64,000 bases of DNA, taken from NCBI RefSeq assembly GCF_000355805.1, contig NZ_CM001837.1:1251408-1315407 (forward strand), read 5' to 3'. How positions within the stretch are numbered: position 1 is the stretch's first letter; each line of letters begins with the position of its first letter. The notes beneath the pieces are model-generated. The model had not been told where the DNA came from. It saw nothing but the letters and a program-made list of their open reading frames with translations, and did no database searches. The stretch comes from Dokdonia sp. PRO95. Lineage in GTDB: Bacteria > Bacteroidota > Bacteroidia > Flavobacteriales > Flavobacteriaceae. Position numbers and translations under genes: made by a program. Positions 1,786-63,968 of the stretch are shown piece after piece.

Positions 1786-2937
1786 ATGCACATAGTCCAA
1801 ATACATAATAGATATAAAGACATAGGCGGTGAAGATATTGTTGTGAGTCGAGAAAAATTGCTACTAGAGTCTGCAGGTCATAAAGTCTCTCAATATATTG
1901 TAAATAACAATGATATTAATACGCTTTCGCGAAAGCTAAAAACGGCATTGTCGCTACCATATTCGGTTTCTCAAAAGAAATTAATTAAGGCATTTTTAAA
2001 AGATTCTTCACCTGATGTTGTGCACGTGCATAATTTTTTGCCTGTAATTACTCCGTCGATTTTTTACGCTTGTAAAGAACTTCGCATACCAGTAATAGTT
2101 ACTCTACATAATTACAGAATACTATGTAGTAACGGGCTTCTTTTTAGAGATGGGAAACCTTGCGAAGACTGTATAAAAAGTAAATGGGGTATTCCCGCTA
2201 TTAAAAACGGTTGTTATCAAGAATCTAAAATCGCGACAGTATTTCCCGTAATCAGTAACGCCCTGCATGGACATTTACAAACATGGTCATCATATATTGA
2301 CAAAGTGATATTGTTAAGCGAATTCTCTCATGAGATTTTTAAGAAATCGCATATAACTTTTAGAGAGGAACAAGTTATAGTCAAACCAAATTTTACCGAA
2401 GATAGAGGCTACCTCTATGATAAAGAGAATTATATGCTATTTGTAGGGCGTCTCTCAGATGAAAAAGGGATTGTAAACGTAATAGAAGCTTGTATTAAAG
2501 CAAATAAAAGACTCAAAATTGCAGGTACAGGTCCCCTTCATGAAGTTGTTGAGAATTATTCACACCTACATAATAATATAGAATTTGTAGGAAATCAAGA
2601 TGGAGAAGAGTTATCAAGCTTATATAAAAATGCTCAAGCATTAATCACAGCATCTAAGATGTACGAGACTTTTGGGTTGGTTATAATAGAATCATTCTCC
2701 TTTGGTACCCCAGTTATTGCACCATCGTTTGGGAATGGTGGGCAATTAGTTAAAGATCAATACAATGGATTACATTACACGTTAGATGATATTGATAATC
2801 TTGTAGAAGCGATTGAAAAAACAGATTACCTAGATCAAGAAACTATGAGAAATAATGCCCGAGAAACATTTCTGAAAAACTACACAGCTCAACAGAACGT
2901 ATTAAAATTGCTAGATGCGTATAAATCCGTTTTATGA
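1786..2937 (+). CDS. Glycosyltransferase family 4 (GT-B)
   Basis: A 383-residue GT-B retaining glycosyltransferase, probably adding a sugar to the lipid-linked repeat unit at the cytoplasmic membrane face. The N-terminal domain has GGEDIVV (14-20) and THLHNYR-like acceptor-side residues (LHNYR 107-111). The C-terminal Rossmann domain has GRLSDEKG (221-228) and the nucleotide-sugar contact region YETFGLVIIESFSFGTP (293-309). A four-Cys stretch (114, 126, 129, 143) follows the LHNYR segment and could bind a metal. The dispersed palindrome encodes TLSRKL at 46-51. Donor and acceptor are unknown. Confidence 0.85.
   Translation: MHIVQIHNRYKDIGGEDIVVSREKLLLESAGHKVSQYIVNNNDINTLSRKLKTALSLPYSVSQKKLIKAFLKDSSPDVVHVHNFLPVITPSIFYACKELRIPVIVTLHNYRILCSNGLLFRDGKPCEDCIKSKWGIPAIKNGCYQESKIATVFPVISNALHGHLQTWSSYIDKVILLSEFSHEIFKKSHITFREEQVIVKPNFTEDRGYLYDKENYMLFVGRLSDEKGIVNVIEACIKANKRLKIAGTGPLHEVVENYSHLHNNIEFVGNQDGEELSSLYKNAQALITASKMYETFGLVIIESFSFGTPVIAPSFGNGGQLVKDQYNGLHYTLDDIDNLVEAIEKTDYLDQETMRNNARETFLKNYTAQQNVLKLLDAYKSVL
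1922..1936. repeat. Dispersed palindrome, in CDS
   Basis: CGCTTTCGCGAAAGC, 15 of 16 bases of the full palindrome, inside the GT4 gene in the frame that reads TLSRKL. Confidence 0.9.
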
Positions 2938-2972
2938 TTAGGAAATTCTATTAAACTATTTTTACAAGCCCT

Positions 2973-4196
2973 ATGAATAATCTCCAAGGCAAACACATCA
3001 CACTTATCTCCTTAAACTTCTACCCGGAAGACACTGCAATAGGACTTTACAGCACGCAACTAGCAGAATATCTAGAGCAGCAAGGAGCACATATTTCGGT
3101 GATTACTGCGTTTCCTTATTACCCTAAATGGGAAATAACAGAAGCATATCAAAACCAAGGAGCTTATCTACATGAGAAGAAGGGAACCATTGATATATAT
3201 AGATATAAGCAATTTACTCCCAAGGAGCCTACATTCTTAAAACGGGTTATACATATAGCCGATTTTACCATAGGTTCACGCTTTAATTTCAAGCAGATTG
3301 CAGCGTGTGATATTGTAATCTCTGTTATTCCTTTTACGAGTAGTGCATGGTTAGGAAATACGCTTTCGCGAAAGCGTAACGCAAAACACTGGATTCACAT
3401 TCAAGATTTTGAATTTGACGCGGCTTTTCAGTCGGGTCTTGCCGCTGGAGGTGAAAGTAAAAGTATGGCGTATAAAGCGTTGATGAAATTAGAGCGCAGT
3501 ATTCTCAATAAAGCAGATTATGTGAGTACGATAAGCCATGCGATGCTTGCCAAACTAAAAGAGAAAACCACCACCGAAACCTACTATTTACCTAACTGGA
3601 TAGATGCAAACGAGAGTGATCCATCTAAGTCACAAGCACATCCTTATTTTTCTAAAGATAAGTGTAGTATTTTATATTCTGGTAATGTGGGAGACAAGCA
3701 AGACTGGCAGTTATTTACAGACCTTATCAAAGCATTAGACTTTAATACGTTTGAAGTAATTGTAGTAGGAGCAGGGGCAAAAATGAATGCTCTAAAGGAG
3801 AATTTAAAACATACAGAAGTAAATTTTTATCCTCCAGTACCATTTGCCGCGTTATCAAGTTTGCTAGCTAGTGCAGATGTGCATATTTTATTTCAAAAGA
3901 GCGAAGTTGTAGATACGGTTATGCCTTCTAAAATACTAGGTATGATGGCGAGCGCTAGACCATCTATCATTACCGGTCACCCAGACGCAGAGCCAGCTAA
4001 GATTATAAATGATTCGAAAGGTGGATATTACAACTCCGTTATTAATGTTGATATAATATTGAGCCAGCTAGAGACTCTCCATTCGGCTCCAGAAACTGCT
4101 TTAACTATGGGTACAGCTGCAAGAAACTATGTACTTGAAAAATTTGCAAGGAAACCTATTTTAGATAAATTTTCTCAAACGCTGAGTAGGTTGTAG
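2973..4196 (+). CDS. WcaI-like glycosyltransferase family 4
   Basis: A 407-residue GT-B enzyme resembling WcaI of colanic acid synthesis, which adds a sugar during assembly of the lipid-linked unit. FYPEDTAIGLYSTQLAEYL (16-34) is the typical N-terminal signature, HIQDFEFDAA follows near 142-151, and YSGNVGDKQDW (235-245) opens the donor-binding domain. PSKILGMMASARP near residue 330 is the usual nucleotide-sugar loop. The gene starts 35 bases after the preceding GT4 stop. The palindrome encodes TLSRKR at 130-135. Substrates cannot be read from sequence. Confidence 0.85.
   Translation: MNNLQGKHITLISLNFYPEDTAIGLYSTQLAEYLEQQGAHISVITAFPYYPKWEITEAYQNQGAYLHEKKGTIDIYRYKQFTPKEPTFLKRVIHIADFTIGSRFNFKQIAACDIVISVIPFTSSAWLGNTLSRKRNAKHWIHIQDFEFDAAFQSGLAAGGESKSMAYKALMKLERSILNKADYVSTISHAMLAKLKEKTTTETYYLPNWIDANESDPSKSQAHPYFSKDKCSILYSGNVGDKQDWQLFTDLIKALDFNTFEVIVVGAGAKMNALKENLKHTEVNFYPPVPFAALSSLLASADVHILFQKSEVVDTVMPSKILGMMASARPSIITGHPDAEPAKIINDSKGGYYNSVINVDIILSQLETLHSAPETALTMGTAARNYVLEKFARKPILDKFSQTLSRL
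3361..3376. repeat. Dispersed palindrome, in CDS
   Basis: Perfect 16-base CGCTTTCGCGAAAGCG within the WcaI-like gene, read as TLSRKR, with the flanking A...TA of the extended form. Confidence 0.95.
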
Positions 4197-4278
4197 GGCT
4201 TAGGCTTTACAAGCAGGTAATACTTCCTTATTTTTACGAACACAGATTGTTAAGTCTGTATAGATTAATCAACCAATT

Positions 4279-5265
4279 ATGAAGAGAGTTTTAATTACGG
4301 GTGCTGCAGGATTTTTAGGGTCTCATTTATGTGATAGATTTATTAAAGAAGGTTTTCATGTAATTGGGATGGATAACCTTATCACTGGTAGCCTGTCTAA
4401 TATTGAGCACCTTTTTAAGTTAGAGCAATTTGAGTTCCATCATCACGACGTTACTACTTTTGTGCATGTGCCAGGTGACTTAGATTATATTCTACATTTT
4501 GCGTCACCAGCGAGTCCTATTGACTATCTTAAAATACCCATACAGACACTTAAAGTAGGTTCGTTAGGAACACACAACCTATTAGGATTGGCCAAGGTTA
4601 AAAATGCCCGTATTCTGATTGCATCAACATCAGAAGTTTATGGTGATCCACTCGTGCATCCTCAGGATGAAAATTATTATGGTAATGTAAACACTATAGG
4701 GCCAAGAGGAGTATATGACGAGGCAAAACGCTTTCAAGAATCTATCACAATGGCTTATCATCGTTTTCATGGCTTAGAAACTCGCATAGTGAGAATTTTT
4801 AACACCTATGGACCTCGTATGAGACTTAATGATGGTAGAGTAATACCTGCATTTATGGGACAAGCGCTCAGGGGAGAAGATCTAACGATATTTGGTGACG
4901 GTTTACAAACTCGTTCCTTTTGTTATGTGGATGACCAGGTAGAGGGTATTTTCCGCCTATTAATGAGTGATTATGCATTTCCCGTAAACATTGGAAACCC
5001 AGATGAAATTACAATAAAAGATTTTGCAGAAGAGATTATAAAACTCACCGGGACTGATCAAAAAGTAATTTACCAAGACTTACCGGTAGATGACCCGATG
5101 CAACGTAAACCTGATATTTCTAAAGCAATGGAAATATTAGATTGGGAGGCCAAGGTAGGTCGCGCAGAGGGTATGAAAAAGACGTTTGAGTATTTTAAAA
5201 GTTTATCTCAAGAGCAATTATATAAAAGCGAACATAAAGACTTTTCAAAACACATACGTAAATAA
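4279..5265 (+). CDS. UDP-glucuronate decarboxylase (UDP-xylose synthase)
   Basis: A 328-residue extended short-chain dehydrogenase/reductase. GAAGFLG (8-14) binds [13 protein letters not shown] (115-124) and YDEAK (146-150) carry the Ser/Thr and Tyr-Lys active site, and [16 protein letters not shown] plus [14 protein letters not shown] are diagnostic of UDP-xylose synthases. These convert UDP-glucuronate to UDP-xylose in the cytosol through a bound 4-keto intermediate. The length is normal for the bacterial enzyme. In this cluster it would supply a pentose donor to the neighbouring glycosyltransferases. A near-consensus -7 box (TATTTTTA) lies about 45 bases upstream. Confidence 0.9.
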
Positions 5266-6620: not shown

Positions 6621-7404
6621 AAATGACATACAGCCACTAGTCTCCATTATCACTCCGCTGTATAATGCAGCACCATTTATTGCTCAAACTATCGCGAGTA
6701 TTCAAGCACAAACGTATCAAAACTGGGAGCAAATTATCGTAGATGATTGCTCGACAGATAATTCTGTTGATATTGTAAGAGCCCTAGCAGCTCTTGATGA
6801 TAGAATTAAACTTATTACGCTTTCGCGAAATAGTGGTGCCGCACACACCCGCAACATTGCAACAGAAGCTGCTCAAGGGAAATTCATTGCATTCTTAGAC
6901 TCTGACGACTTATGGCATGCAGAAAAACTCCAGAAGCAAATTGCCTTTATGCAAAAAACAGCTTGTGACGTTTCTTATACCAGCTATGTACATATCGATG
7001 AACATGGAAAACCACTTGGTAAACGCATCGTGGCATTACCAGAGCTCCATTACAAAAAGCAACACAGCAATAACTATGTGGGAAATCTCACTGGTATTTA
7101 CAATGCAACCTCAATAGGTAAAATAAGCGCTCCAGACGTTAGAAAAAGACAAGACTGGGCGCTGTGGCTAGACGCGATAAAGAAGAGCGGAAAACCCGCC
7201 TTAGGTTTGCAAGAAGATCTGGCTTTTTATAGAGTACGTGAAGGCTCGATGAGCTCAAATAAATTAAATCTCGTTAAGTACAACTATCAGTTTTACAAAA
7301 CTTGCTTAGGATATTCTCATGTAGTAGCTGCAATATGTTTACTCCGCTTTTTCTGGGAGTACTTCGTAGTAAGACCTGAATGGATACAGCGATATGATGT
7401 CTAA
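6604..7404 (+). CDS. Glycosyltransferase family 2
   Basis: A 266-residue GT-A inverting glycosyltransferase. VSIITPLYN (13-21), VDDCSTDNS (46-54) and the metal-binding LDSDDLW (98-104) are classic GT2 motifs; RKRQDWALWLD near 180 matches the catalytic ED/QDW region. It overlaps the end of the phosphotransferase by 17 bases and closes the plus-strand polysaccharide run, its stop facing the convergent CapK-like gene with a 4-base overlap. The palindrome is truncated here and reads TLSRN at 72-76, in a position where GT2 proteins commonly have a short loop before an asparagine-glycine. Confidence 0.9.
   Translation: MTKLTKNDIQPLVSIITPLYNAAPFIAQTIASIQAQTYQNWEQIIVDDCSTDNSVDIVRALAALDDRIKLITLSRNSGAAHTRNIATEAAQGKFIAFLDSDDLWHAEKLQKQIAFMQKTACDVSYTSYVHIDEHGKPLGKRIVALPELHYKKQHSNNYVGNLTGIYNATSIGKISAPDVRKRQDWALWLDAIKKSGKPALGLQEDLAFYRVREGSMSSNKLNLVKYNYQFYKTCLGYSHVVAAICLLRFFWEYFVVRPEWIQRYDV
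6818..6830. repeat. Dispersed palindrome, truncated, in CDS
   Basis: CGCTTTCGCGAAA: the exact 10-base core with the left arm only, inside the GT2 gene. Confidence 0.8.
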
Positions 7405-8711
7405 GAAACGAGAGAAGTAAACTGTTTGAGTTTACCTCTATCCCTACGGTCCAGTACGGCTACTTTTTCAAAAGTTAGCTTTAGTTCATCTTCAAGATAA
7501 GTAGTGGTAGCTTTTTCAATATTTCTTTTTTCTTGAGCATTAAGTGGTCTCTCAGAGGTATAAATAAATTTAAATGAATCTTGAGCAGTTTGCTCAATAA
7601 TGAACTCACTTACATTGCCATCTTCCTCTATAATACTCTTGGTCACATAATAAAATGTTAGTCCAGGAACTACTTTGCCGCTAGGTAGCCGTGCAATATC
7701 ACTTGTTCTTCCTTGAAGATTTTCTAAAATAGGATTTTTAAGCGTGCTTAGTGGTGATAAAGATCCCATATCACCTATATCATAACGTATAAAAGGATGT
7801 GCTTTATTATAAAAAGATGTGATTACAATACGCCCTACCACACCGTGAGGTACAGGCTTATCGTTATCATCAAGAATTTCGACAAATAACAACTCACTAT
7901 CTACCTCTAACTGATTCTCCTTATTTTGAAAGGCTATAAGTCCTACTTCTGAGGCTCCATATTCATTAATGATTGGGACATTAAATTGCTCCTGCATTAA
8001 TTCTAAATCATCGGGAAATAGCATTTCACTAGTGACAATACATGCTTTAAGAGTAGGACAGATATCAGTGAGTATAATTTGGTGCTTTTTCAAATACTTA
8101 GCAAGTAATACAATGCTACTGGTGTAGCCATTTATATAGTCAAAAGGTGTCTTGCTAAATTTTTTAACCATATCTGCAAGCTTGTGCTCGCAAAGATCAA
8201 AAATGGGAAAACGATATCTGTTACCTAGTTTATCCTTGAGTCTTTCCTTTTGATAGGCAATCGTTGTAAGCGGAATCCCATAAAAACGCGCCTGTTTTGA
8301 GGTGTCCAGGTCAAGATGATACCAGTTGTACCTCCTTTGGAAACTCACCCAGCTCAACGCATGAGCGTCTTTATCTTTTGCAAAAACAAAAGGATGTCCA
8401 GAAGATCCAGAGGTCCTACCTACGTATACCGTCTTGCGGTCGTAGTTTTGAGAAAGCCTATTTTCAAGCGGTTGTTGTAGATCTGCTTTTGTTAGCACTG
8501 GCAGTGTTTCCCAGTCTTTTTCGCCTCTTTCGGTAAGGAGACTTTTATAAAAGGAATTATAAATCTCGTGATGGGTAACTATCTTTTTTTTCTGCTCAGA
8601 TATATATGCTGCATATTCACTTTCTGGGATATCTATGATACGTTGTAATTCCGCTTTCGCGAAAGCGGTATCAAATCCCTTCATTTTTAAAGCCCAGTTG
8701 AATAAATTCAC
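7401..8711 (-). CDS. CapK-like adenylate-forming enzyme (phenylacetate-CoA ligase family)
   Basis: A 436-residue protein of the ANL superfamily branch that includes phenylacetate-CoA ligase and CapK of capsule clusters. RTSGSSGHPFVF (99-110) is the ATP-phosphate loop, NEYGASEVGLIAFQ is the adenylate-binding motif and RYDIGDMG the next core motif. CapK proteins occur in polysaccharide loci and are thought to activate an acid that decorates the polymer, though the reaction is not established. It is convergent with the GT2 gene and divergent from purD. The palindrome encodes TAFAKA at 15-20. Substrate unknown. Confidence 0.75.
   Translation of the reverse strand: MNLFNWALKMKGFDTAFAKAELQRIIDIPESEYAAYISEQKKKIVTHHEIYNSFYKSLLTERGEKDWETLPVLTKADLQQPLENRLSQNYDRKTVYVGRTSGSSGHPFVFAKDKDAHALSWVSFQRRYNWYHLDLDTSKQARFYGIPLTTIAYQKERLKDKLGNRYRFPIFDLCEHKLADMVKKFSKTPFDYINGYTSSIVLLAKYLKKHQIILTDICPTLKACIVTSEMLFPDDLELMQEQFNVPIINEYGASEVGLIAFQNKENQLEVDSELLFVEILDDNDKPVPHGVVGRIVITSFYNKAHPFIRYDIGDMGSLSPLSTLKNPILENLQGRTSDIARLPSGKVVPGLTFYYVTKSIIEEDGNVSEFIIEQTAQDSFKFIYTSERPLNAQEKRNIEKATTTYLEDELKLTFEKVAVLDRRDRGKLKQFTSLVS
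8652..8667. repeat. Dispersed palindrome, in CDS
   Basis: Perfect 16-base copy near the 5' end of the CapK-like gene, read on the minus strand as AFAKA. Confidence 0.95.
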
Positions 8712-12168: not shown

Positions 12169-13182
12169 ATGACTCAACAAAAACACATGCTCATCATTCG
12201 TCTCTCTGCAATGGGAGACGTTGCGATGACGGTGCCTGTGGTGTACGCTTTCGCGAAAGCGAACCCAGAAATAAAAATATCCTTCCTTTCAAAACCTTTT
12301 TTTAGGCCTATTGTAGAAGCAATGCCTAATGTATCCTTTATCGCTGCCGAAGTCAATACCATACATAAAGGGGTGAGCGGTATGTGGAAATTATCGCGCC
12401 AACTTAAAAAGTTAGGAATTACACATGTAGCAGATATGCACAATGTAATTCGGTCAAAAATGCTGCGTAAGTTTCTTAATCTTCCCAGCGTTTCCTTAGA
12501 TAAAGGTAGACCAGATAAAAAGGCACTCACTAGAAGCACAGATAAAGTTTTTAAAGCTCTCAAGACCACAATAGCAAGATATCAAGATGTTATTGAAGGG
12601 TTAGACGGACATCATTTTATACCAGAACCACTCCCTAAACCTAACAAACAAGATGAGGTTATAGAGTTTACTGCTGGTTGTCATAAAAAGTGGATTGGTA
12701 TAGCACCTTTTGCTGCACACCTAGGGAAGCAATATCCACTAGACTTGATGGAACAAGTCATTAGAGAGTTAGATGGTAAAAAGGATTACAATTTATTTCT
12801 TTTTGGAGCACCAGATGAGGAGGAGATACTAAGGGATCTTTCACAAGGTTGCATGATGACAAAAGTAGTTGCCGGAAAACTCAAATTTAAAGAAGAAATT
12901 AATTTTATAAGTCAGCTAGATCTTATGCTCGCTATGGATAGCGGTAATGCGCACCTAGCAGCAATGTATGGGATTCCTACGGTGACATTGTGGGGAGTAA
13001 CACACCCATACGCAGGATTTGCACCATATAACCAAGAAGCAAATTGCTTACTTTCAGATAGAAAAAAGTATCCACAAATACCTACCTCTATTTACGGAAA
13101 CGTAGTTCCTGAAGGCTATGAGGATGTGATGAGGACTATCTTACCTGCTGATATTGTTGAGAACGTGACAACTATAATCTAG
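12169..13182 (+). CDS. Glycosyltransferase family 9 (heptosyltransferase-like)
   Basis: A 337-residue GT-B enzyme of the ADP-heptose:LPS heptosyltransferase family. IIRLSAMGDVAMTVPVV (about 9-25) is the N-terminal signature. AMDSGNAHLAAMYGIPTVTLWG (about 255-276) is the donor-site motif with the Asp-Ser-Gly-x-x-His core. It would extend lipid A core sugar at the cytoplasmic face of the inner membrane. The palindrome falls at the end of the first helix and reads YAFAKA, residues compatible with that helix. It follows DUF4254 and is probably cotranscribed. Confidence 0.88.
   Translation: MTQQKHMLIIRLSAMGDVAMTVPVVYAFAKANPEIKISFLSKPFFRPIVEAMPNVSFIAAEVNTIHKGVSGMWKLSRQLKKLGITHVADMHNVIRSKMLRKFLNLPSVSLDKGRPDKKALTRSTDKVFKALKTTIARYQDVIEGLDGHHFIPEPLPKPNKQDEVIEFTAGCHKKWIGIAPFAAHLGKQYPLDLMEQVIRELDGKKDYNLFLFGAPDEEEILRDLSQGCMMTKVVAGKLKFKEEINFISQLDLMLAMDSGNAHLAAMYGIPTVTLWGVTHPYAGFAPYNQEANCLLSDRKKYPQIPTSIYGNVVPEGYEDVMRTILPADIVENVTTII
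12246..12261. repeat. Dispersed palindrome, in CDS
   Basis: Perfect 16-base copy in the GT9 gene, read as AFAKA. Confidence 0.95.
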
Positions 13183-14200: not shown

Positions 14201-14213
14201 CGCTTTCGCGAAA
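14201..14213. repeat. Dispersed palindrome, intergenic, truncated
   Basis: CGCTTTCGCGAAA, five bases after the nitronate monooxygenase stop and just before the tandem repeat array; the right arm runs into an A-tract. Confidence 0.85.
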
Positions 14214-14221
14214 AAAGGAAC

Positions 14222-17456: not shown

Positions 17457-18509
17457 CTACACATCATCAAAATCTACCACAATCGAAGCTGAGGTAGGAT
17501 GCGCCTGGCAGGTAAGTATTAATCCTTCGGCTACTTCTGAGTCTGTTAAGATTTGGTTTTGTGACATGACTGCTGTTCCTTCTGTTACACGAGCAATACA
17601 GCTGCTGCATATGCCGCCTTGACAAGAATGTGGAGCATCTATGTCTTGATCTAACGCTACATCAAGAATGACAGCATCTTTCTCCATAGTAAACTCAAAT
17701 TCCTCATCGTCACAAACTACTTTGATGGCAGTTTTCCCATCTAGGTTGGCGTCAATAGTTACCTCTTCTGTACTTGCAGTAAAAAGTTCGAAGTGGATAT
17801 TTTCTTCCTTAGTATCGTTTTCCTTAAGCACTTTAGAAACTTCTTTGATCATGGCTTCTGGGCCACATAAGAAGTACTCGTTAAAGTTATTTGACGCATA
17901 TTTATTCTTTACTACAAAATTAACTGTAGCCTTCATAATACGTCCAAAATGTGCTCCATCTACTCGTGTTTGAGAGTAAATAAACTCTATAGAGAAACGA
18001 TCTTTATACTGGTCGCGTAAGGCAATTAACTCATCGCGGAACATGGCTTCTTCTTCGGTGCGGTTTCCGTACACTAGAACAAATTTACTATCTGCAGACT
18101 GTGATAATGTAGTCTTAATCATTGATAAGATAGGCGTGATTCCTGATCCTGCAGCAAAGGCTGCGTAGGTTTGCGCTTTCGCGAAAGCGGAATTTTCAAT
18201 TTTAAAACGTCCTTCTGGTGTATGAACGTCCATGGTATCACCCTCCTTTAACTCACGGTTTGCATACGTAGAAAATGTACCATTCTCAACTTCTTTTATC
18301 GCAACAGTAAGTCCTTCTTGAGGAGTGCTGCAAAGAGAATATGCGCGACGAACTTCCTCGCCATTAATTTGAGTTTTTAAAGTTATATATTGTCCTGCAG
18401 AGAAGTTAAAATCTTCTTTAAGCGAATCTGGAACAGCAAAAGTTACTGCCACAGATTTTTCTGTAACGCGCGTAATGCTTTGTATATGAAGTGTATGAAA
18501 TTGTGACAT
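17457..18509 (-). CDS. PaaE-like ferredoxin-NAD(P)H reductase with 2Fe-2S domain
   Basis: A 350-residue three-domain electron-transfer protein: an FAD domain with RRAYSLCS (about 54-61), an NAD(P) domain with AAGSGITPILSM, VYGNRTEEEAMFRDEL and YFLCGPEAMI, and a C-terminal plant-type 2Fe-2S domain with CQGGICSSC plus a fourth Cys in LILTCQAHP. Such proteins feed electrons to oxygenases (PaaE feeds phenylacetyl-CoA epoxidase), but no oxygenase subunits are nearby. I start at the ATG at 18509 (MSQFHTLHIQ); the frame extends to 18557 but adds a basic, non-conserved leader. The palindrome encodes SAFAKA in the linker before the NAD domain. Confidence 0.88.
   Translation of the reverse strand: MSQFHTLHIQSITRVTEKSVAVTFAVPDSLKEDFNFSAGQYITLKTQINGEEVRRAYSLCSTPQEGLTVAIKEVENGTFSTYANRELKEGDTMDVHTPEGRFKIENSAFAKAQTYAAFAAGSGITPILSMIKTTLSQSADSKFVLVYGNRTEEEAMFRDELIALRDQYKDRFSIEFIYSQTRVDGAHFGRIMKATVNFVVKNKYASNNFNEYFLCGPEAMIKEVSKVLKENDTKEENIHFELFTASTEEVTIDANLDGKTAIKVVCDDEEFEFTMEKDAVILDVALDQDIDAPHSCQGGICSSCIARVTEGTAVMSQNQILTDSEVAEGLILTCQAHPTSASIVVDFDDV
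18174..18189. repeat. Dispersed palindrome, in CDS
   Basis: Perfect 16-base copy in the PaaE-like gene, read on the minus strand as AFAKA in an interdomain linker. Confidence 0.95.
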
Positions 18510-21121: not shown

Positions 21122-23665
21122 TTGAAATTACTCTTAAGACGTTTATTCTTTACTGGTGTTATTACACTATCTCTATCGAGTTGCTCTCGTAAGAACGATT
21201 CTTTTTTGAGCCGTAACTTCCATGCTGTTACTACAGAGTTCAATACATTGTATAATGGAAACGTTGCGCTAGAAGAAGGCAAGAACTCCCTCGTACAAAC
21301 CTTTAATGATAATTATTGGGATGTTTTACCTATTGAGCGCATCGCTTTTGAAGAAAATACAGCTCTAGGAGAAGAGAATAGAGACCCTAACTTCTTAAGA
21401 GCAGAAGAAAAAGCCATAAAGGCAATACAAAACCATGCTATGAAAATAGATGGTGAGGAACGCAACCCACAAATGGATGAAGCTTTTCTTCTATTGGGTA
21501 AAGCACGTTACTACGATCAGCAATTTGTACCTGCTTTAGAGGCTTTTAATTATGTACTCGCATATTATCCCAAGAGTAATAACATAGCACAAGCCAAGGT
21601 CTGGAAGGCAAAAACAAATATTAGGCTTGAGAATAATGAGGTAGCAATTAAAAATCTTAAACAAATTTTTGAGGTAGAAAAAGATCTCAAAGATCAAGAT
21701 ATTGCAGATGCTCATGCAATGCTCACGCAAGCATATCTCAACCTTGGTATTCAAGATAGTGCATTTCAATATATACAAAGTGCGGCAAAGCTTACAAGAA
21801 AATCTGAAGAGCGCGGTCGCTACAACTATATTTTAGGCCAATTATACAATAGAGCAGGCGAGTATTCACTCGCAAATGAAGCGTTTCAAGATGTTATTGA
21901 TCTCAACCGTAAAATACCACGTAAATACCATATTAACGCACGCTTGGAGCAAATGCGTAACTACGATTATAAAGTGGTAGATACGCTAGTAGTAAGAGAG
22001 CGCTTAGATAAAATGGTTCGTAACCGTGAGAATAGACCATTTTTAGATAAAATCTATTACGCAAAAGCAGACTTCTTTATGAGAACAGGAAGAGAAGACT
22101 CTGCAATTGTTAATTATAATAAGTCTTTAAGGCAAAGTAGTACAGATGATTACTTGCTTTCTAGAGATTACCTAGCACTCGCAGATTACAATTTTGAGCA
22201 GGCCTCGTATAAAATTGCGGGAGCATATTATGATAGTGTTATAGGAAAAATTAATGATCGTAGCCGTGAGTATCGTACTATCAAGAAAAAGCGAGAGAAT
22301 CTAACTGACGTTATAGATTATGAAAACCTCACACAGCGCAATGATAGCATCATTGCTTTAGTGACACTTTCAGAAGACTCACTTACGGCTTATTTTGATA
22401 ACTACATTGCGCAAATCAAAGCAAAAAAGGAAGCAGATTCTATTGCACGTGTTGATAAAATACGTAACAATGAATTTTTTAATGCTTCAGGTAGTGGAGC
22501 TAGAGAATCCGGTGGAGAGCCAGGAGAGTTTTATTTCTATAATGATGTAGCAGTTGCATACGGAAAACAGTCTTTTGAAAGAAGATGGGGGAAACGCCGT
22601 CTCGTGGATGGATGGAGATTATCTTCTGTACAATCTGTACCTCTTAATTCGAGTAACTTGCCAGTTGCCTTAGATAATCCAGATCTTGACGGAGAAAAAG
22701 ACATGACTACGGCAGATTATATTGCAAGCTTACCAAGGGAGAAGACTCAAGTAGATAGTCTGTTAAAAGAACGCGACTTTGCATACTTCCAGCTAGGTCT
22801 TATTTATAAAGAGAAATTTAAAGAATATCCTCTGGCAGCCCAGCGATTAGAAAAATTACTAACTTTTAATCCAGATGAAAAGTTGGTGCTTCCTGCATTA
22901 TACAATCTCTACCAAGTGTATGGGACTATGGACGCTTCCGCGAAAGCGAATACCTACAAAAATAAAATTACAACGGAATATCCAGATTCTCGTTATGCTA
23001 CTCGCATCAATAATCCAAACAAAGCATTAGAAGCCGATGCAGAGTCTCCAGAAGAGGTGTATAAGGGATTATATAAGAGATTTCAGAACCAAAATTTTGT
23101 AAATCTCGAGAGCGATTTAAATAAAAGAATCGATCAGTTTTATGGCGACCCTTATTTACCAAAGTTCGAATTACTTAAAGCAACAGTCGCTGGAAGATAT
23201 GAAGGGTATGAGGCTTATAAGAAAGGGTTGAGCTATGTAGCACTTACATATCCTCGCACAGAAGAAGGAAAGAAAGCACAAAGCCTACTGCAAAATGCAC
23301 TCCCTACCATGAAGTTTGATCAATTTGATGACGAGTCTATTGCAATTAACTATAAAATAATCTATCCATTTAAAAATAGTAATATTCAAGGAGCGAGAGA
23401 TTTACAGCAAAAACTTTTAGAAAGTTTTGAGGAGGTGGGCTATACGGAGTTTTCAACCTCTATAGATGTTTATGATGCACAACAATCATTTGTTGTAATT
23501 CATTATTTAAGTAGCCGCAGCCAGGCAGAAGGCCTAGTGGAGTTGCTTAGTACTAATAAAGATATTTTGATAACGTTACCTAGTATGGTAATCGCATCAG
23601 AGAATTATAAAATAATTCAAATGCATAAAAATCTTGATGCATACAAAGCACAAGATTCAAATTAA
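21122..23665 (+). CDS. sprE: SprE/PorW-like type IX secretion lipoprotein
   Basis: An 847-residue TPR lipoprotein. The signal peptide ends in a lipobox-like SLSSCS (about 17-22) and the conserved start FNTLYNGNVALEEGK follows. Helical repeats run through about 100-350 and 560-680. This order and length match SprE of Flavobacterium (PorW of Porphyromonas), an outer-envelope lipoprotein needed for type IX secretion and gliding. The start is TTG at 21122, chosen because the signal peptide begins there and no in-frame ATG precedes it. A palindrome variant (one mismatch) encodes DASAKAN at about 603-609. No T9SS core genes lie in this window. Confidence 0.82.
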   Translation: MKLLLRRLFFTGVITLSLSSCSRKNDSFLSRNFHAVTTEFNTLYNGNVALEEGKNSLVQTFNDNYWDVLPIERIAFEENTALGEENRDPNFLRAEEKAIKAIQNHAMKIDGEERNPQMDEAFLLLGKARYYDQQFVPALEAFNYVLAYYPKSNNIAQAKVWKAKTNIRLENNEVAIKNLKQIFEVEKDLKDQDIADAHAMLTQAYLNLGIQDSAFQYIQSAAKLTRKSEERGRYNYILGQLYNRAGEYSLANEAFQDVIDLNRKIPRKYHINARLEQMRNYDYKVVDTLVVRERLDKMVRNRENRPFLDKIYYAKADFFMRTGREDSAIVNYNKSLRQSSTDDYLLSRDYLALADYNFEQASYKIAGAYYDSVIGKINDRSREYRTIKKKRENLTDVIDYENLTQRNDSIIALVTLSEDSLTAYFDNYIAQIKAKKEADSIARVDKIRNNEFFNASGSGARESGGEPGEFYFYNDVAVAYGKQSFERRWGKRRLVDGWRLSSVQSVPLNSSNLPVALDNPDLDGEKDMTTADYIASLPREKTQVDSLLKERDFAYFQLGLIYKEKFKEYPLAAQRLEKLLTFNPDEKLVLPALYNLYQVYGTMDASAKANTYKNKITTEYPDSRYATRINNPNKALEADAESPEEVYKGLYKRFQNQNFVNLESDLNKRIDQFYGDPYLPKFELLKATVAGRYEGYEAYKKGLSYVALTYPRTEEGKKAQSLLQNALPTMKFDQFDDESIAINYKIIYPFKNSNIQGARDLQQKLLESFEEVGYTEFSTSIDVYDAQQSFVVIHYLSSRSQAEGLVELLSTNKDILITLPSMVIASENYKIIQMHKNLDAYKAQDSN
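22933..22948. repeat. Dispersed palindrome, one mismatch, in CDS
   Basis: CGCTTCCGCGAAAGCG, one transition from the consensus, in the SprE-like gene, read as ASAKA. Confidence 0.75.
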
Positions 23666-27371: not shown

Positions 27372-27400
27372 ATAAACGGCTCATCGTGAGGTGAGAAAAA

Positions 27401-27413
27401 TTTCGCGAAAGCG
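27401..27413. repeat. Dispersed palindrome, intergenic, in atpH-atpA spacer
   Basis: TTTCGCGAAAGCG, core plus right arm, in the 62-base spacer between atpH and atpA, within the operon. Confidence 0.85.
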
Positions 27414-29019: not shown

Positions 29020-29032
29020 CGCTTTGGCGAAA
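29020..29032. repeat. Dispersed palindrome, one mismatch, in atpA-atpG spacer
   Basis: CGCTTTGGCGAAA differs from the motif by one base at the centre. It lies eight bases after the atpA stop. Confidence 0.55.
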
Positions 29033-29047
29033 AATATAATTCAACAA

Positions 29048-37647: not shown

Positions 37648-37663
37648 CGCTTTCGCGAAAGCG
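37648..37663. repeat. Dispersed palindrome, intergenic
   Basis: Perfect 16-base copy 12 bases after the EnvC-like stop, preceded by a T-run on the plus strand. Confidence 0.95.
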
Positions 37664-40217: not shown

Positions 40218-41321
40218 ATGTCCGAAAAAGAATTACTTTCCTTGCTTACATTACAACATACTCCTAATCTAGGTGATGGTACCATCAAGAAATTAATACA
40301 ACAATTTGGGAGTGCAGAGGAGGTACTAAAACAGTCCAAAACCACGCTTCTCAAAATAGATGGGATAGGAAATCATAAACTTAGTGCCTTCGGTGAGGAG
40401 AAGTATTACGCTTTCGCGAAAGAAGAACTTTCTTTCATTCAGTCTAATGATATTAAGCCAACTACCTACACAGACCCAGACTATCCACAGCGGTTGAAAT
40501 ATTGTATAGACGGACCAGTTGTTCTCTTTTCTCGAGGGAATATTAACTGGAATAATCCGCGAGTCATAAGTATTGTGGGAACTCGTAAAATCACTACTTA
40601 TGGTGAGCATTTCTTAAAAAAGTTCATAAAAGAGATAGCTCCGCTCAATCCACTTATTATTTCGGGATTTGCTTATGGAGTAGATATTACAGCTCATAAA
40701 GCGTGTATTGACCACGGTTTACAAAACATAGGCGTACTTGCTCACGGCCTTAATCAAGTGTATCCTAAAGTACACAGCAAGTATATGAGCGGAGTAGAGG
40801 CAAACGGAGGTTTTGTTACAGATTTCTGGAGTCGTAGTAGTTTTGTGCATACTAACTTCTTGCAGCGCAACCGGATTATAGCAGGCCTCTCTGAAGCGAC
40901 TATTGTGATTGAATCTGCCGAGAAAGGAGGTTCTCTTGTCACTGCAGATTTTGCAAATGGCTACAATCGCGATGTATTTGCGGTACCAGGTCGAGCAGAC
41001 GATAAGCAAAGTTTAGGGTGTAATAATCTCATCAAACAACAACGAGCAAATCTCATGACAAGCGCAGCCGACCTTGTGTATATTCTCAACTGGAAACTAG
41101 AAGAAAAACAGCAGCCAGCCGTTCAAAAACAACTTTTTGTAGAACTCACAGAAGAAGAAAAGGTCGTGTGGCGATTCCTTAACGAGAATGGAAAAGAGCT
41201 TATGGATATTATTGCTCTCAACTGCAAGCTACCCACTTTTAAAATCGCGAGTATATTATTGCAAATGGAACTTAAAGGAGTGGTAAGACCATTGCCAGGG
41301 AAGTTGTTTGAGTTGACTTAA
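40218..41321 (+). CDS. dprA: DNA processing protein DprA
   Basis: A 367-residue DprA. HhH-like start, Rossmann core with VGTRKITTYGE (about 117-127), SGFAYGVDITAHKACIDHG and RNRIIAGLSEATIVIESAEKGGSLVTADFAN, and a C-terminal winged-helix segment. DprA loads RecA on incoming single-stranded DNA during transformation. It is the only competence gene in the window. The palindrome encodes YAFAKE at about 63-68. Confidence 0.95.
   Translation: MSEKELLSLLTLQHTPNLGDGTIKKLIQQFGSAEEVLKQSKTTLLKIDGIGNHKLSAFGEEKYYAFAKEELSFIQSNDIKPTTYTDPDYPQRLKYCIDGPVVLFSRGNINWNNPRVISIVGTRKITTYGEHFLKKFIKEIAPLNPLIISGFAYGVDITAHKACIDHGLQNIGVLAHGLNQVYPKVHSKYMSGVEANGGFVTDFWSRSSFVHTNFLQRNRIIAGLSEATIVIESAEKGGSLVTADFANGYNRDVFAVPGRADDKQSLGCNNLIKQQRANLMTSAADLVYILNWKLEEKQQPAVQKQLFVELTEEEKVVWRFLNENGKELMDIIALNCKLPTFKIASILLQMELKGVVRPLPGKLFELT
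40409..40422. repeat. Dispersed palindrome, in CDS
   Basis: CGCTTTCGCGAAAG in dprA, read as AFAK in a helical region. Confidence 0.9.
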
Positions 41322-41417
41322 TCTTTGAAATATTTTAAGAGGTTTGGTTATGAGTTAGTTACTCTCATCGTAAGTGTGTACTTTATAGATAATGCACTTA
41401 TAAGAGGTTGAGAACAT

Positions 41418-41430
41418 TTTCGCGAAAGCG
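41418..41430. repeat. Dispersed palindrome, intergenic
   Basis: TTTCGCGAAAGCG in the 197-base gap between dprA and the lipoprotein gene. Confidence 0.85.
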
Positions 41431-46164: not shown

Positions 46165-46180
46165 CGCTTTCGCGAAAGCG
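46165..46180. repeat. Dispersed palindrome, intergenic
   Basis: Perfect 16-base copy between the yicC promoter region and the end of the SdpI-like gene, preceded by a T-run on the plus strand. Confidence 0.95.
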
Positions 46181-49520: not shown

Positions 49521-49536
49521 CGCTTTCGCGAAAGCG
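49521..49536. repeat. Dispersed palindrome, intergenic
   Basis: Perfect 16-base copy in the 81-base gap between the TIM-barrel and Gfo/Idh genes, inside the operon, preceded by a T-run. Confidence 0.95.
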
Positions 49537-52010: not shown

Positions 52011-53000
52011 TTATTTAAGATTGTCTATTGATTTTTGAACTAGTGCTTTAGTCAGAGCGATACCTTCTTTTGGGTCTTCTAGTGGCCCTTCATATTCTGT
52101 ACCCACATATCCTTCAAAACCGCTATCGGCAACGATTTGCATTAATCGTTGATAGTCTAATTTTGTCTCATCACCATTTTCATCAAAGTTATATGACTTT
52201 GCAGACACTCCTTTTGCATACGGCATCATTTCTTCTATTCCTTTATAGGTATCATATTCTAAAATACAAGGCGCGCCCCAGCGTTCTCCACCTTCACGTT
52301 TTACACAAAAGTTTCCAAAATCTGGTAAGACACCTACTGTTTCCATATTAACCTCTTTCATCACAGCAACAAGCTTTTCTCCATCACTAGACCATCCTCC
52401 GTGGTTTTCTATAATTACGTTTACGCCTACTTCTTTACCGTAAGCTCCTAGTTCTTTAAGAGATGCTACAGATAGTGCGTGCCATTTTACAGGATCTAGC
52501 TCTCCAAAGAGATTTGCCCTTACCGAATGTGCTCCCATAAGTTTTGCAGCATCCATCCATATTTTGTGATTTGCAATAGCTTCTTCTAGTTTTTTAGGAT
52601 CTGGATCTGCTAGTTCACCAGCGTGATCAACCATAATAAGAACGTTATCCATTCCTGCAGCATTTGCCTTAGTATTAAGGTCGTTTGCAAGTTTCATTAC
52701 ACGTTCTTTGTAACCTGTCCCTACTTCAGCAACAGATGGATATAGTTGTGTCACATATTCTACTCCGGTAAAACCAAGATCTTTGGCAATTTGCGGGAAT
52801 TCCATCGGGTCCATAGTACCATCTTGAAACGGTTTGTGAAGTGACCATTGAGCTAGCGAATGTTTGAAAGTTGGAGCTGTTTTTTGAGAATTTTCAATTT
52901 CTGCTTTCGCGGAAGCGTTATCACCCTCTTTTTTTTGATCTGTTTTACAAGAAAAGAGTGTAAATGCGCATAAAAATGCTCCTAGAAGATATTTTTTCAT
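52011..53000 (-). CDS. Periplasmic lipoprotein TIM barrel (sugar isomerase-like)
   Basis: A 329-residue lipoprotein: lipobox LFSC (Cys18), a linker with NASAKAE (28-34, encoded by a palindrome variant), then an AP-endonuclease-2-type barrel with IENHGGWSSDG, PDFGNF, and GYVGTEYEGP as metal-site segments. It is the first gene of the minus arm. Being exported, it probably acts on an oxidised sugar outside the cytosol. Confidence 0.85.
   Translation of the reverse strand: MKKYLLGAFLCAFTLFSCKTDQKKEGDNASAKAEIENSQKTAPTFKHSLAQWSLHKPFQDGTMDPMEFPQIAKDLGFTGVEYVTQLYPSVAEVGTGYKERVMKLANDLNTKANAAGMDNVLIMVDHAGELADPDPKKLEEAIANHKIWMDAAKLMGAHSVRANLFGELDPVKWHALSVASLKELGAYGKEVGVNVIIENHGGWSSDGEKLVAVMKEVNMETVGVLPDFGNFCVKREGGERWGAPCILEYDTYKGIEEMMPYAKGVSAKSYNFDENGDETKLDYQRLMQIVADSGFEGYVGTEYEGPLEDPKEGIALTKALVQKSIDNLK
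52902..52917. repeat. Dispersed palindrome, two mismatches, in CDS
   Basis: TGCTTTCGCGGAAGCG, a diverged copy in the linker of the lipoprotein TIM barrel, read on the minus strand as ASAKA. Confidence 0.6.
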
Positions 53001-55583: not shown

Positions 55584-56534
55584 ATGGACAGAAGGAAATT
55601 TATACAAAAAGGAGCTCTCACGGGTTCCTTTTTAGGTTTAGGTAGTATCGGGGTAAACGCTATGGTTAATGGGATAGGAGATGTTTCCGCTTTCGCGAAA
55701 GCGAAAAATGGAGCACACTCTTTTAATCTCAACTATGCTCCACATGTAGGGATGTTTAAAGAGCTCGCTGGCGAAAATGTGATCGATCAGCTTCACTTTA
55801 TGGCAGATCAAGGATTTACCGCCTTCGAAGATAATGAGATGCGCAACCGTCCCATTGCTGAACAAGAGGCCATGGCACTTGTTATGAAAGAACGTGGGAT
55901 AACCATGGGAGTATTTGTGGCTCATAAGATATACTGGACAACACCTCATCTAGCGAGCGGAAAGCAAGAATGGAGAGAAGAGTTTCTAGGTGATATTAAG
56001 AAATCTGTTACTGTCGCCAAACGTGTAAATGCAAAGTGGATGACAGTCGTACCTGGTCATGTGGATATGCGTCAAGACATGGCATATCAAACGGCAAACG
56101 TGGTAGAGACTTTAAAACAAGCTGCAGCGATTCTAGAACCACATGGAATTGTAATGGTGCTTGAACCATTAAATTTTAGAAACCACCCAGGACTCTTTTT
56201 ATCTAAGTCGCCGCAAGCATATCAAATTTGTAAAGCAGTAGATAGTCCGTCCTGTAAGATTCTATTTGATATTTACCATCAGCAAATTCAAGAAGGAAAC
56301 TTGATTCCTAACATAGAGCAGTGCTGGGACGAGATTGCTTATTTCCAGATAGGAGATAACCCGGGGCGCAATGAGCCTACCTCTGGAGAGATTAACTATA
56401 AAAATGTATTTAAATATATTCATAGCCGCGATTTTAAAGGAGTTTTAGGAATGGAGCATGGCAATAGTATAAAAGGGAAGGAAGGCGAGCAGCGTGTAAT
56501 AGATGCGTATGTGGAGAGTGATGGATTTTTGTAA
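55584..56534 (+). CDS. Tat-exported TIM barrel, hydroxypyruvate isomerase-like
   Basis: A 316-residue protein: Tat-type start MDRRKFIQKGALTGSFLGLG, then a TIM barrel with EPLNFRNHPG (about 193-202), LFDIYHQQIQEGN (about 223-235), QIGDNPGRNEP (about 249-259) and GMEHGNS (about 294-300) as metal-site segments of the hydroxypyruvate isomerase-like family. The palindrome encodes SAFAKA (35-40) right after the signal region. Third exported or cytosolic barrel of the locus. Confidence 0.88.
   Translation: MDRRKFIQKGALTGSFLGLGSIGVNAMVNGIGDVSAFAKAKNGAHSFNLNYAPHVGMFKELAGENVIDQLHFMADQGFTAFEDNEMRNRPIAEQEAMALVMKERGITMGVFVAHKIYWTTPHLASGKQEWREEFLGDIKKSVTVAKRVNAKWMTVVPGHVDMRQDMAYQTANVVETLKQAAAILEPHGIVMVLEPLNFRNHPGLFLSKSPQAYQICKAVDSPSCKILFDIYHQQIQEGNLIPNIEQCWDEIAYFQIGDNPGRNEPTSGEINYKNVFKYIHSRDFKGVLGMEHGNSIKGKEGEQRVIDAYVESDGFL
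55688..55703. repeat. Dispersed palindrome, in CDS
   Basis: Perfect 16-base copy just after the Tat signal of the TIM-barrel gene, read as AFAKA. Confidence 0.95.
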
Positions 56535-58622: not shown

Positions 58623-59348
58623 ATGTCTGAGATAACGAGCCTTACAGATCAAGATTTTAGAGATGGCCAAGTGCTTATTTTTGACAAGCCTCTTGAGTGG
58701 ACTTCCTTCCAGCTAGTAAACAAAGTGCGCTGGCTTATACGTAAGAACCGAAACATAAAAAAGATCAAAGTAGGGCACGCAGGCACACTAGACCCGCTCG
58801 CTACTGGTCTTATGATTATCTGTACAGGTAAGTTTACAAAGCGTCTACACGAGTTTATGGGTCAGGAGAAGGAATATACTGGCACCATCACTCTAGGTGG
58901 CACCACGCCTAGTTATGACCTGGAGACAGCCATAGATAAAGAATACCCTACCGAGCATATCACTGAGGAGGATATATACGCTTTCGCGAAAGCGTACCAA
59001 GGAAAAATAATGCAACGTCCACCTGTATTTTCTGCACTAAAAAAAGAAGGGAAGCGTCTGTATGAATTTGCAAGAGCAGGTGAGGAAGTAGAAATTCCGA
59101 AGCGAGAGATACACATCTCATCTTTTGAAATTACACGTATTGAAATGCCCGAAGTAGATTTTAAAGTAAGCTGCAGTAAAGGTACTTATATACGATCACT
59201 AGCGTTCGATTTTGGAGAAGGGCTTAAAAGTGGTGCCCACCTTACGGCGCTTAGAAGAACCAAAATAGGCGATTATAGCGTAGATAATGCACATCTTCTA
59301 GATGACTTTATAAGAGAGATTACTCAAAGCAATCCTGGCGATATCTAG
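58623..59348 (+). CDS. truB: tRNA pseudouridine(55) synthase
   Basis: A 241-residue TruB that makes pseudouridine 55 in the T loop. GHAGTLDPLATG (51-62) contains the catalytic Asp57; RPPVFSALKKEGKRLYEFAR (about 130-149) and CSKGTYIRSLAFD are further motifs. It lacks the larger C-terminal PUA domain, as is common in Bacteroidota. Four-base gap after uppP. The palindrome reads YAFAKAY in the helix before the RPPVFSA motif. Confidence 0.96.
   Translation: MSEITSLTDQDFRDGQVLIFDKPLEWTSFQLVNKVRWLIRKNRNIKKIKVGHAGTLDPLATGLMIICTGKFTKRLHEFMGQEKEYTGTITLGGTTPSYDLETAIDKEYPTEHITEEDIYAFAKAYQGKIMQRPPVFSALKKEGKRLYEFARAGEEVEIPKREIHISSFEITRIEMPEVDFKVSCSKGTYIRSLAFDFGEGLKSGAHLTALRRTKIGDYSVDNAHLLDDFIREITQSNPGDI
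58979..58994. repeat. Dispersed palindrome, in CDS
   Basis: Perfect 16-base copy in truB, read as AFAKA. Confidence 0.95.
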
Positions 59349-61390: not shown

Positions 61391-62047
61391 CTATTTAAGA
61401 TATTCTAAAAAGGTTTCTCTAGGTATTTCATCGGCGCCTAGGCTTGCGAGATGGTCTGTGTACATCTGGCAGTCTATGAGCTTGTATCCGTTTTTAGTAA
61501 GCTTTCGCGAAAGCGTAATAAACCCCACTTTACTGGCATTACTCATGGTTGCAAACATACTCTCGCCACAAAAAACACCTTTATCTTGCAAGTCTATACC
61601 ATAGAGGCCTCCTACGAGTTTGTCTTCATGCCAGACTTCTACAGAGATTACATGACCTAATTCGTGTAATCTGAGATACGCGTCTATGATATCATTAGTA
61701 ATCCATGTGCCGTCTTGACCGTTACGTTTAATACGCTTACAAGCGAGAATTACCTCTAAGAAATTTTTATTGTAAGTGACTTCAAAGTGGTTATCACGTA
61801 ACACTTTGCGCATGGATTTAGACACATGAACGTCGCTAGGTTTTACGACCATACGTGGGTCTGGACTCCACCACAAGATGGGTTGCCCCTCATTATACCA
61901 AGGGAAAATACCAGATTTGTAGGCGAGTAATAACCAGTCTGTAGTAAGATCTCCACCTACCATAAGTAGTCCTTCTTCGTCTGCCAGATGGTGTTCTGGA
62001 AACCAAGGGTCATTATTCCAATGTTGATCTTCTGGGAGTAAAAGCAC
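61391..62047 (-). CDS. aat: Leucyl/phenylalanyl-tRNA-protein transferase
   Basis: A 218-residue Aat of the N-end rule, adding Leu or Phe to proteins with N-terminal Lys/Arg. EGLLMVGGDLTTDWLLLAYKSGIFPWYNEGQPILWWSPDPRMVV (about 26-70) and GVFCGESMFATMSNASKVGFITL are diagnostic. Start is GTG at 62047, as no in-frame ATG precedes it. The palindrome reads TLSRKL (about 178-183), within the GNAT-fold region. Confidence 0.95.
   Translation of the reverse strand: MLLLPEDQHWNNDPWFPEHHLADEEGLLMVGGDLTTDWLLLAYKSGIFPWYNEGQPILWWSPDPRMVVKPSDVHVSKSMRKVLRDNHFEVTYNKNFLEVILACKRIKRNGQDGTWITNDIIDAYLRLHELGHVISVEVWHEDKLVGGLYGIDLQDKGVFCGESMFATMSNASKVGFITLSRKLTKNGYKLIDCQMYTDHLASLGADEIPRETFLEYLK
61501..61515. repeat. 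Dispersed palindrome, in CDS
   Basis: GCTTTCGCGAAAGCG in aat, read on the minus strand as TLSRKL. Confidence 0.9.
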
Positions 62048-62069
62048 GAGTATAATTAATAGCTATGCA

Positions 62070-62077: not shown

Positions 62078-62078
62078 A

Positions 62079-62444: not shown

Positions 62445-62460
62445 AGATTGATAAAGGTGT

Positions 62461-62500
62461 AAAAATAAAGAACCCAAAACAAGTTAATTGTTTTGGGTTC
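62461..62500 (-). terminator. Intrinsic terminator after the DUF3127 gene
   Basis: GAACCCAAAAC (62470-62480) pairs perfectly with GTTTTGGGTTC (62490-62500), loop of nine bases; on the minus strand it is followed by a T-rich tract. Confidence 0.8.
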
Positions 62501-62528
62501 AAATCTCAATTTATTGAGCTTTATCGTC

Positions 62529-62912: not shown

Positions 62913-62948
62913 CGCGTTCAATTATTAGGGTGTAAATTTATAAAAATC

Positions 62949-63824: not shown

Positions 63825-63847
63825 ACATATCTTTTTAAAAAGTGTAT

Positions 63848-63855
63848 CAAAAATA
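63848..63855 (-). promoter_or_regulatory. Putative flavin reductase promoter -7 box
   Basis: CAAAAATA reads TATTTTTG on the minus strand, 23 bases before the ATG. Confidence 0.5.
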
Positions 63856-63872
63856 GGAATTCTTTAAGGGTA

Positions 63873-63968
63873 TTAATAACGCTTTCGCGAAAGCTTAACA
63901 ACAACCTCAACATCATTATAAGAAAAGCTGTCTAGCGGCTCTATTAATAAGTCTTTTGTGTAGGAATT
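63873..63968 (-). other. Open frame at the right edge, possible gene end
   Basis: On the minus strand this frame reads a 31-residue, protein-like segment ending DVEVVVKLSRKRY-stop, with the palindrome coding LSRKR. A stop (63969-63971) precedes it and there is no ATG, so either it is the tail of a broken or frameshifted gene, or chance. Confidence 0.25.
63880..63894. repeat. Dispersed palindrome near right edge
   Basis: CGCTTTCGCGAAAGC, 15 of 16 bases, about 55 bases upstream of the flavin reductase ATG. Confidence 0.9.

Follow-up and report, generated by a model that had tools for sequence, protein, structure and literature searches.

An evenly spaced palindrome of Dokdonia sp. PRO95 as a candidate self-DNA uptake signal or chromosome-organizing site

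In Dokdonia sp. PRO95, a short palindrome with the core TTTCGCGAAA recurs along a 64-kb stretch of contig NZ_CM001837.1 (positions 1,251,408 to 1,315,407; this whole stretch is referred to as the window) and at about a thousand sites across the genome. The motif is most likely either a tag of self-DNA or a chromosome organizer. Compared with known systems, its properties appear to fit DNA uptake sequences best, better than they fit highly iterated palindrome 1 (HIP1) of cyanobacteria, and by this analogy we consider the case evenly balanced for a genome-wide self-DNA signal whose mode of action would resemble that of uptake sequences in Neisseria and Haemophilus. A joint formulation is held tentatively, with slightly less than even confidence: the palindrome would be either the self-recognition sequence, readable in both directions and regularly spaced along the chromosome, of a pilus-independent uptake system of Bacteroidota, or an intracellular grid of about a thousand anchoring sites.

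Abundance and clade distribution

The window contains 21 exact TTTCGCGAAA cores, compared with a mean of 0.07 (maximum, 2) in 100 dinucleotide shuffles and an expectation of 0.11 under a third-order Markov model of the window. An earlier, sequence-only reading of the window had listed all 21, and each was recovered where it had been placed, as were its three near copies (one, four, and two mismatches to the 16-mer CGCTTTCGCGAAAGCG; Table 1). Its statement that many copies extend beyond the core was also borne out, as the full 16-mer is present at 11/21 cores; at least one full CGC arm accompanies 20/21 cores and at least one GC arm all 21. Allowing zero to four mismatches, the 16-mer matched 25 window positions, and six shuffled palindromes matched zero to three each.

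Across the complete genome (G000; one contig, 3,305,093 bases), the 13-mer TTTCGCGAAAGCG occurs 771 times on the forward and 773 times on the reverse strand, versus 1 and 0 for the reversed control. Counts of TTTCGCGAAAGC are 901 on one strand and 909 on the other, and the 14-bp palindrome GCTTTCGCGAAAGC occurs 794 times, giving 1,016 sites (901 + 909 − 794) with at least one GC arm, or one per 3.25 kb. The sequence-only reading would have failed had the excess been local to the window or no larger than a Markov model predicts; it is instead genome-wide and extends through the genus.

Within a sample of 397 genomes of the family, GCTTTCGCGAA reached at least 496 copies per strand in six genomes from three genera: G000 and G206 (genus g1), G010, G242, and G394 (g11), and G190 (g191). 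In the remaining 391 genomes, the count never exceeded 23 matches per strand. Each of the 18 g1 genomes searched contains TTTCGCGAAAGC, at 421 to 1,049 copies per strand (some of the assemblies are incomplete). In a 395-genome sample of the phylum, the 14-mer exceeded six copies only in G000; with G000 the sole known carrier sampled, this shows the rarity of the 14-mer rather than its absence. In a single-protein tree (847 residues; 30 genomes), the 10 carriers group together, save that genus g145 (G144) is nested among them. The fewest changes in carrier state are two, and the fork joining g11 to the rest is weakly supported (80/70); the distribution would fit one gain and one loss. The two g145 genomes, G144 and G329, have about 20 matches per strand (19/22 in G144), which may be leftovers after loss or may belong to elements. 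Genome size and site count were not significantly related across 13 genomes (slope, p = 0.16; Spearman, p = 0.065), and we make no claim from them.

No paper on the motif was found among the open-licence PubMed Central (PMC) literature containing the letters TTTCGCGAAA, judged by title and start of abstract; the motif may still have been described. Dialects of the motif were also sought as over-represented 9- and 10-mers in 20 genomes from non-carrier genera (one 20-kb stretch each), and no comparable, evenly dispersed 10-mer was retrieved. Of the strongest matches, one was a tandem repeat of G254, another lay for most of its copies in a tRNA cluster of G156, and the other two, from G143 and G265, were AT-rich words that were partly local. 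The G254 repeat has a 7-bp unit and imitates a motif dialect (L092, 13291-13342).

Anatomy of the motif

Dokdonia-group DNA (947 kb) yielded 281 cores, of which 139 carry both CGC arms and are palindromic over 16 bp, 121 carry one arm, and 21 carry none. Where a core has one mismatch and at least one arm (41 cases), the mismatch affects the third T in the half core in 28, the C in 10, and the second T in 3. On either side of the dyad, the 5′ flanks are C-poor and T-rich for about 20 bp, in genes and intergenic DNA alike; the T positions of g11 are −5, −6, −9, −12, −14, and −15, and the flank of G190 is weaker. At 67 single-arm sites, this T signature is higher on the arm side (3.07 versus 2.24 of 6; p = 0.0004), in a comparison that omitted the 75/280 Dokdonia-group cores belonging to neither class (two-arm or one-arm). 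Thus, the unit is directional, comprising a T-rich flank, CGC, and TTTCGCGAAA, and the palindrome is two overlapping inverted units.

Copies of the form CGCTTT-NNNN-AAAGCG, which share a 6-bp stem, have CGCG at the center in 139/141 cases. Because a hairpin need not fix its loop, duplex DNA, rather than RNA, seems to be what is read.

Placement relative to genes

Placement was analyzed in 464 kb of PRO95 (the window plus 20 stretches; 149 cores), with gene positions taken from our own simple open reading frame caller and no annotation used. Intergenic DNA holds 86/149 cores and genes hold 63/149, with 87% of the DNA coding and 13% non-coding, which amounts to an approximately ninefold intergenic enrichment per base. 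The intergenic share is lower in other carriers (G206, 7/29 with 91% coding; g11, 18/45 with 90%; G190, 8/28 with 88%). In PRO95, density per kilobase is 1.37 in tandem gaps, 1.37 in divergent gaps, and 1.98 in convergent gaps; no promoter or terminator role therefore stands out there. The g11 sample (16 tandem, 1 divergent, and 1 convergent site; 1.40, 0.35, and 0.63 per kb) is too small for a conclusion. Coding sites in PRO95 use all three frames, encoding AFAKA-type (33), LSRKR (17), and RFRES (13) peptides, and 43/63 lie in the first half of the gene. By eye, in the gene at window positions 24759-25949 and other AFAKA genes, the AFAKA frame can fall just where a signal peptide terminates and an AxA cleavage site would be needed.

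These data bear on a very improbable alternative, that the motif is an RNA or transcription signal such as a hairpin, a terminator, or the site of a global regulator. Its perfect palindromes, T-rich 5′ and A-rich 3′ flanks, many positions just outside genes, and location in tandem gaps at 16/18 intergenic sites of g11 would suit such a role, but the near-invariant loop is unlike that of a hairpin preserved for its stem, and thus the stem alone is not what is kept. In addition, 142/281 cores lack one or both CGC arms, divergent and tandem gaps of PRO95 are equally dense, 63/149 sites lie inside genes in all three frames, and the T-rich DNA stands before the hairpin rather than after it.

Spacing along the chromosome

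Sites in PRO95 are markedly even. The coefficient of variation (CV) of the gaps is 0.57, versus 0.96 under a uniform null and 1.06 under a class-aware null that keeps the coding and intergenic shares, and only 12/128 gaps are shorter than 1 kb, versus 40 and 47 expected, respectively. Gap CVs are 0.37 in g11, 0.47 in G206, 0.62 in G190, and 0.67 in eight other Dokdonia-group genomes (nulls, 0.95 to 0.98), the last set consisting of stretches orthologous to the window and therefore not independent of it. The CV lies under the uniform null in all five sets. Measures that did not reach significance were the largest gap in PRO95 (P = 0.20 and 0.13), gaps of <1 kb in G190 (P = 0.125), and 20-kb dispersion in G206 (P = 0.35) and in the eight-genome set (P = 0.09). 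The sequence-only reading had described roughly one site per 3 kb without clustering; the density holds genome-wide, but the sites are far more regular than merely unclustered ones would be.

Twenty 20-kb stretches, covering 12% of the PRO95 genome, contain four to eight sites each, with no regional trend by eye. Single-arm sites showed no strand bias between replichores (28 versus 28 in about 14% of the genome, with replichores guessed from GC skew). GC skew in PRO95 changes from negative (1.155-Mb stretch) to positive (window) at about 1.2 Mb, just before the window, and because of this flip the replication origin may be near that point.

Even spacing argues against mutation bias alone, whose sites should not repel each other, and so bears on the improbable view that the motif is HIP1-like, arising and persisting through a methyltransferase and a repair bias linked to it. 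In the available text of Elhai (PMC4390886), highly iterated palindromes (HIPs) are linked to a methyltransferase; HIP1 and the alternate HIPs resemble the present motif as short CG-rich palindromes iterated through the whole genomes of one clade. The motif differs from them in being longer, flanked, and in intergenic excess. While its CG-centered palindrome, very high iteration, and clade limitation agree with a HIP1-like origin, as do C5 methyltransferase (PF00145) matches in 6/15 carriers versus 1/7 non-carriers, such matches are missing in 9/15 carriers, and PF01555 matches over the cut-off are missing in 13/15 (present in 2/15 carriers and 1/7 non-carriers), these being the two families searched. 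Three single-contig genomes, G399, G401, and G402, have neither family over the cut-off (G399 has one PF01555 match below it) yet contain 873/893, 944/937, and 762/768 motif matches. PRO95 has two adjacent C5 methyltransferase matches (C1:2994546-2996633), and none was found in G399 or G401.

The sequence-only reading had likened the pattern to HIP1 or to a chromosome-organizing site. The dispersion it described stands, and even spacing fits an organizing site; the methyltransferase link failed in the two families tested, and uptake sequences, which it did not name, fit best.

Conservation and turnover of sites

After alignments of fewer than 300 columns were dropped, cores were identical at 16/16 alignable orthologous sites in G399 and 16/16 in G401 (two species at 90% identity), compared with 43 to 44% of random 10-mers and 23/53 and 21/54 of other CGCG-centered 10-mers. 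At 82% identity (G397), 10/14 cores were identical, versus 29% of random and 8/52 of other CGCG 10-mers. Across six species at 72 to 74% identity, 22/35 cores were identical, versus 5 to 9% and 3/146, respectively; stretches L014, L015, and L016 gave 5/5, 1/2, and 4/6. Of individual cores, 18177 is unchanged in 12/12 aligned Dokdonia-group sequences, and 12249 is the same in G397, G399, G401, G404, G206, and L016 but altered in G402 and G412. The core is held unchanged while its flanks diverge; the motif is maintained.

Site and non-site alleles often align gap-free, differing by substitutions only. Copying of a miniature repeat (repetitive extragenic palindrome-like or miniature inverted-repeat transposable element-like) by a transposase is accordingly hard to credit and has hardly any probability in our estimation: high copy number, intergenic excess, and some empty alleles that differ by gaps speak for it, but many occupied/empty pairs differ by substitutions only, the shared sequence ends at the motif and its T-rich flank, and the sites are evenly spaced. 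Taken together, the fixed loop, the gap-class densities, and the gap-free alleles disfavor a hairpin or terminator, a regulator site, and a transposed repeat.

Clusters on mobile DNA and viral contigs

In several motif-poor relatives, the few matches cluster within some tens of kilobases: all 10 listed matches in G102, 8/9 in G093, and, for G337, 8 among the first 10 of its 22. In G101, the listed matches (10 of 14) fall in two parts of a contig. The cluster stretches (Table 1) have genes in common. Nine proteins scanned in the G337 stretch included TraG, a coupling protein, DUF4138, DUF5712, a metal P-type ATPase, an AcrB-family pump, and a TonB-dependent receptor, and two had no match. Judged by these tra and metal-efflux genes, the clusters sit on DNA resembling conjugative elements. 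Such elements may once have lived in motif-rich hosts and would then bear the stamp of the former host.

The exact 16-mer also occurs in IMG/VR, in 41 stretches of about 30 viral contigs that may include prophages and host DNA (e.g., IMGVR_UViG_3300040781_000495; L191, L208, and L211). One 37-kb contig has it at six listed places.

Uptake signal or chromosome-organizing site

DNA uptake sequences (DUS) of Neisseriaceae and uptake signal sequences (USS) of Pasteurellaceae are described, in the available text of PMC1939737, as evenly spaced, in non-coding excess, free of orientation bias, and originating by point mutation and, in that of PMC2397512, as strongly conserved, above their flanks, in permissive core regions. 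The present motif is like them in its upwards of a thousand copies, even spacing, non-coding excess, lack of strand bias, and conservation in permissive places (PMC1939737 and PMC2397512). It differs in being often palindromic, with T-rich flanks on both sides and a single-arm directional form also present, and in its hosts, which often lack pilus ATPases and belong to another phylum; an uptake function here is proposed by analogy. USS consist of a core plus an AT-rich flank, and the motif likewise has a core and a T-rich flank. To our knowledge, no uptake-type signal has been recognized outside Neisseriaceae and Pasteurellaceae, and this motif would be the first.

For Riemerella, a member of the same family, the available text of PMC8459023 reports transformability, though pilus homologs were not found there, through ComEC, DprA, ComF, and RecA together with four new proteins, including DUF5689 and CarboxypepD_reg proteins. 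PRO95 likewise has ComEC and a DUF5689 gene that comes after a CarboxypepD_reg gene, the same pair as in that source. R. columbina prefers its own DNA (PMC7965970); the portion of that paper available to us names no such motif, and its top k-mers are nearly all A and T. By analogy, a surface receptor of a pilus-free uptake machinery in Flavobacteriaceae would bind the directional unit, site-bearing DNA would enter through ComEC, and recombination with imported DNA would spread and repair copies. If one copy per imported piece is enough, this would give even spacing.

Several observations weigh against an uptake signal. Known uptake sequences are non-palindromic, in contrast to the motif here, and are less even than a compaction role would need, according to the available text of PMC1939737. 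The pilus/type II ATPase family PF00437 was found over the cut-off in 5/14 carriers and 5/20 non-carriers, so it is missing in 9/14 carriers, five of them single-contig genomes. ComEC matches occurred in 19/19 and DUF5689 matches in 25/25 genomes searched, non-carriers included. A carrier-specific uptake receptor was considered and rejected, as the DUF5689 tree does not gather the carriers (four changes). With both proteins equally common in non-carriers and the carriers scattered in this tree, no receptor is singled out. A long frame stands upstream of DUF5689 in 23/25 short fragments, of which the PRO95 frame alone was scanned. None of four alignable cores was kept between genera, gaps occur at one to three sites in 7/12 Dokdonia-group comparisons, and no compensating new sites were found near lost ones, the nearest site being further off than from random points. 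Finally, nothing on DNA uptake by Dokdonia was found in the open-licence PMC literature.

Unlikely, though the main rival, is a putative chromosome-organizing site, at which a dimeric DNA-binding protein of the clade would bind each dyad and bridge, anchor, or space the nucleoid every 3 to 4 kb. An organizing protein explains the spacing and the dyad as well as an uptake signal does, and agrees with the even spacing in separate genome sets, the dyad symmetry with a flank signature of about 20 bp on each side, the retention of cores, and the similar density in the twenty stretches and the window. Less compatible are the lack of an obvious regional trend (by eye, in the twenty 20-kb stretches) or strand bias, the lack of a known cognate protein, the loss of sites without nearby replacement, and the single CGC arm of 121/281 cores and its absence from 21, which is loose for a strict dimer site. 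The MatP, Noc, and KOPS systems have a regional trend or strand bias, unlike the motif here. parS, Noc, matS, and SlmA sites are, like it, palindromic chromosomal dyads resembling protein sites; the motif has far more copies than these, with no regional bias seen.

Table 1. Motif sites in the window (positions in the 64-kb stretch) and motif-cluster stretches in relatives
Feature	Position	Strand	Context
Site, one outer arm base altered, core 1925	1922..1937	.	within gene (TLSRKLK)
Full 16-mer, core 3364	3361..3376	.	within gene (TLSRKRN)
Single-arm site, core 6821	6818..6833	+	within gene (TLSRNSG)
Full 16-mer, core 8655	8652..8667	.	near 5′ end of − strand gene (TAFAKAE)
Full 16-mer, core 12249	12246..12261	.	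within gene (YAFAKAN)
Single-arm site, core 14204	14201..14216	+	intergenic
Full 16-mer, core 18177	18174..18189	.	within gene (SAFAKAQ)
Near copy, 1 mismatch, located in core	22933..22948	.	
Full 16-mer, core 24827	24824..24839	.	near start of F0F1 ATP synthase subunit A gene (YAFAKAD); signal-peptide region by eye
Single-arm site, core 27401	27398..27413	−	intergenic, directly before atpA
Degenerate near copy, 4 mismatches	29020..29035	.	
Single-arm site, core 30437	30434..30449	−	within gene (YFRESVG)
Site with only GC arm on one side, core 32191	32188..32203	+	near 3′ end of gene (SFREKEL)
Full 16-mer, core 34299	34296..34311	.	near 5′ end of tetratricopeptide repeat (TPR)-like protein gene (TLSRKRM)
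Degenerate near copy, 4 mismatches, absent from the sequence-only list	36551..36566	.	
Full 16-mer, core 37651	37648..37663	.	intergenic
Single-arm site, core 40412	40409..40424	+	within gene (YAFAKEE)
Single-arm site, core 41418	41415..41430	−	intergenic
Full 16-mer, T run on left, core 46168	46165..46180	.	intergenic
Full 16-mer, T run on left, core 49524	49521..49536	.	intergenic
Near copy, 2 mismatches	52902..52917	.	
Full 16-mer, core 55691	55688..55703	.	within gene, N-terminal part (SAFAKAK)
Full 16-mer, core 58982	58979..58994	.	within truB (YAFAKAY)
Site, one outer arm base altered, core 61503	61500..61515	.	within − strand gene (TLSRKLT)
Site, one outer arm base altered, core 63883	63880..63895	.	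intergenic
Cluster stretches L057-L065	G102 C1:55-115 kb; G093 C30; G337 C5:40-100 kb		
Cluster stretches L066-L068	G101		

Implications

Most of what is documented on DNA uptake guided by sequence marks comes from two groups of piliated proteobacteria. If the palindrome is an uptake signal, DNA self-recognition would become testable in an independent lineage, a flavobacterial clade with many members that lack pilus ATPases, and the even spacing would help to distinguish molecular drive from selection acting on spacing. As a chromosome-organizing site, it would be unusual in copy number and regularity. Whichever function holds, the motif may mark resident DNA.

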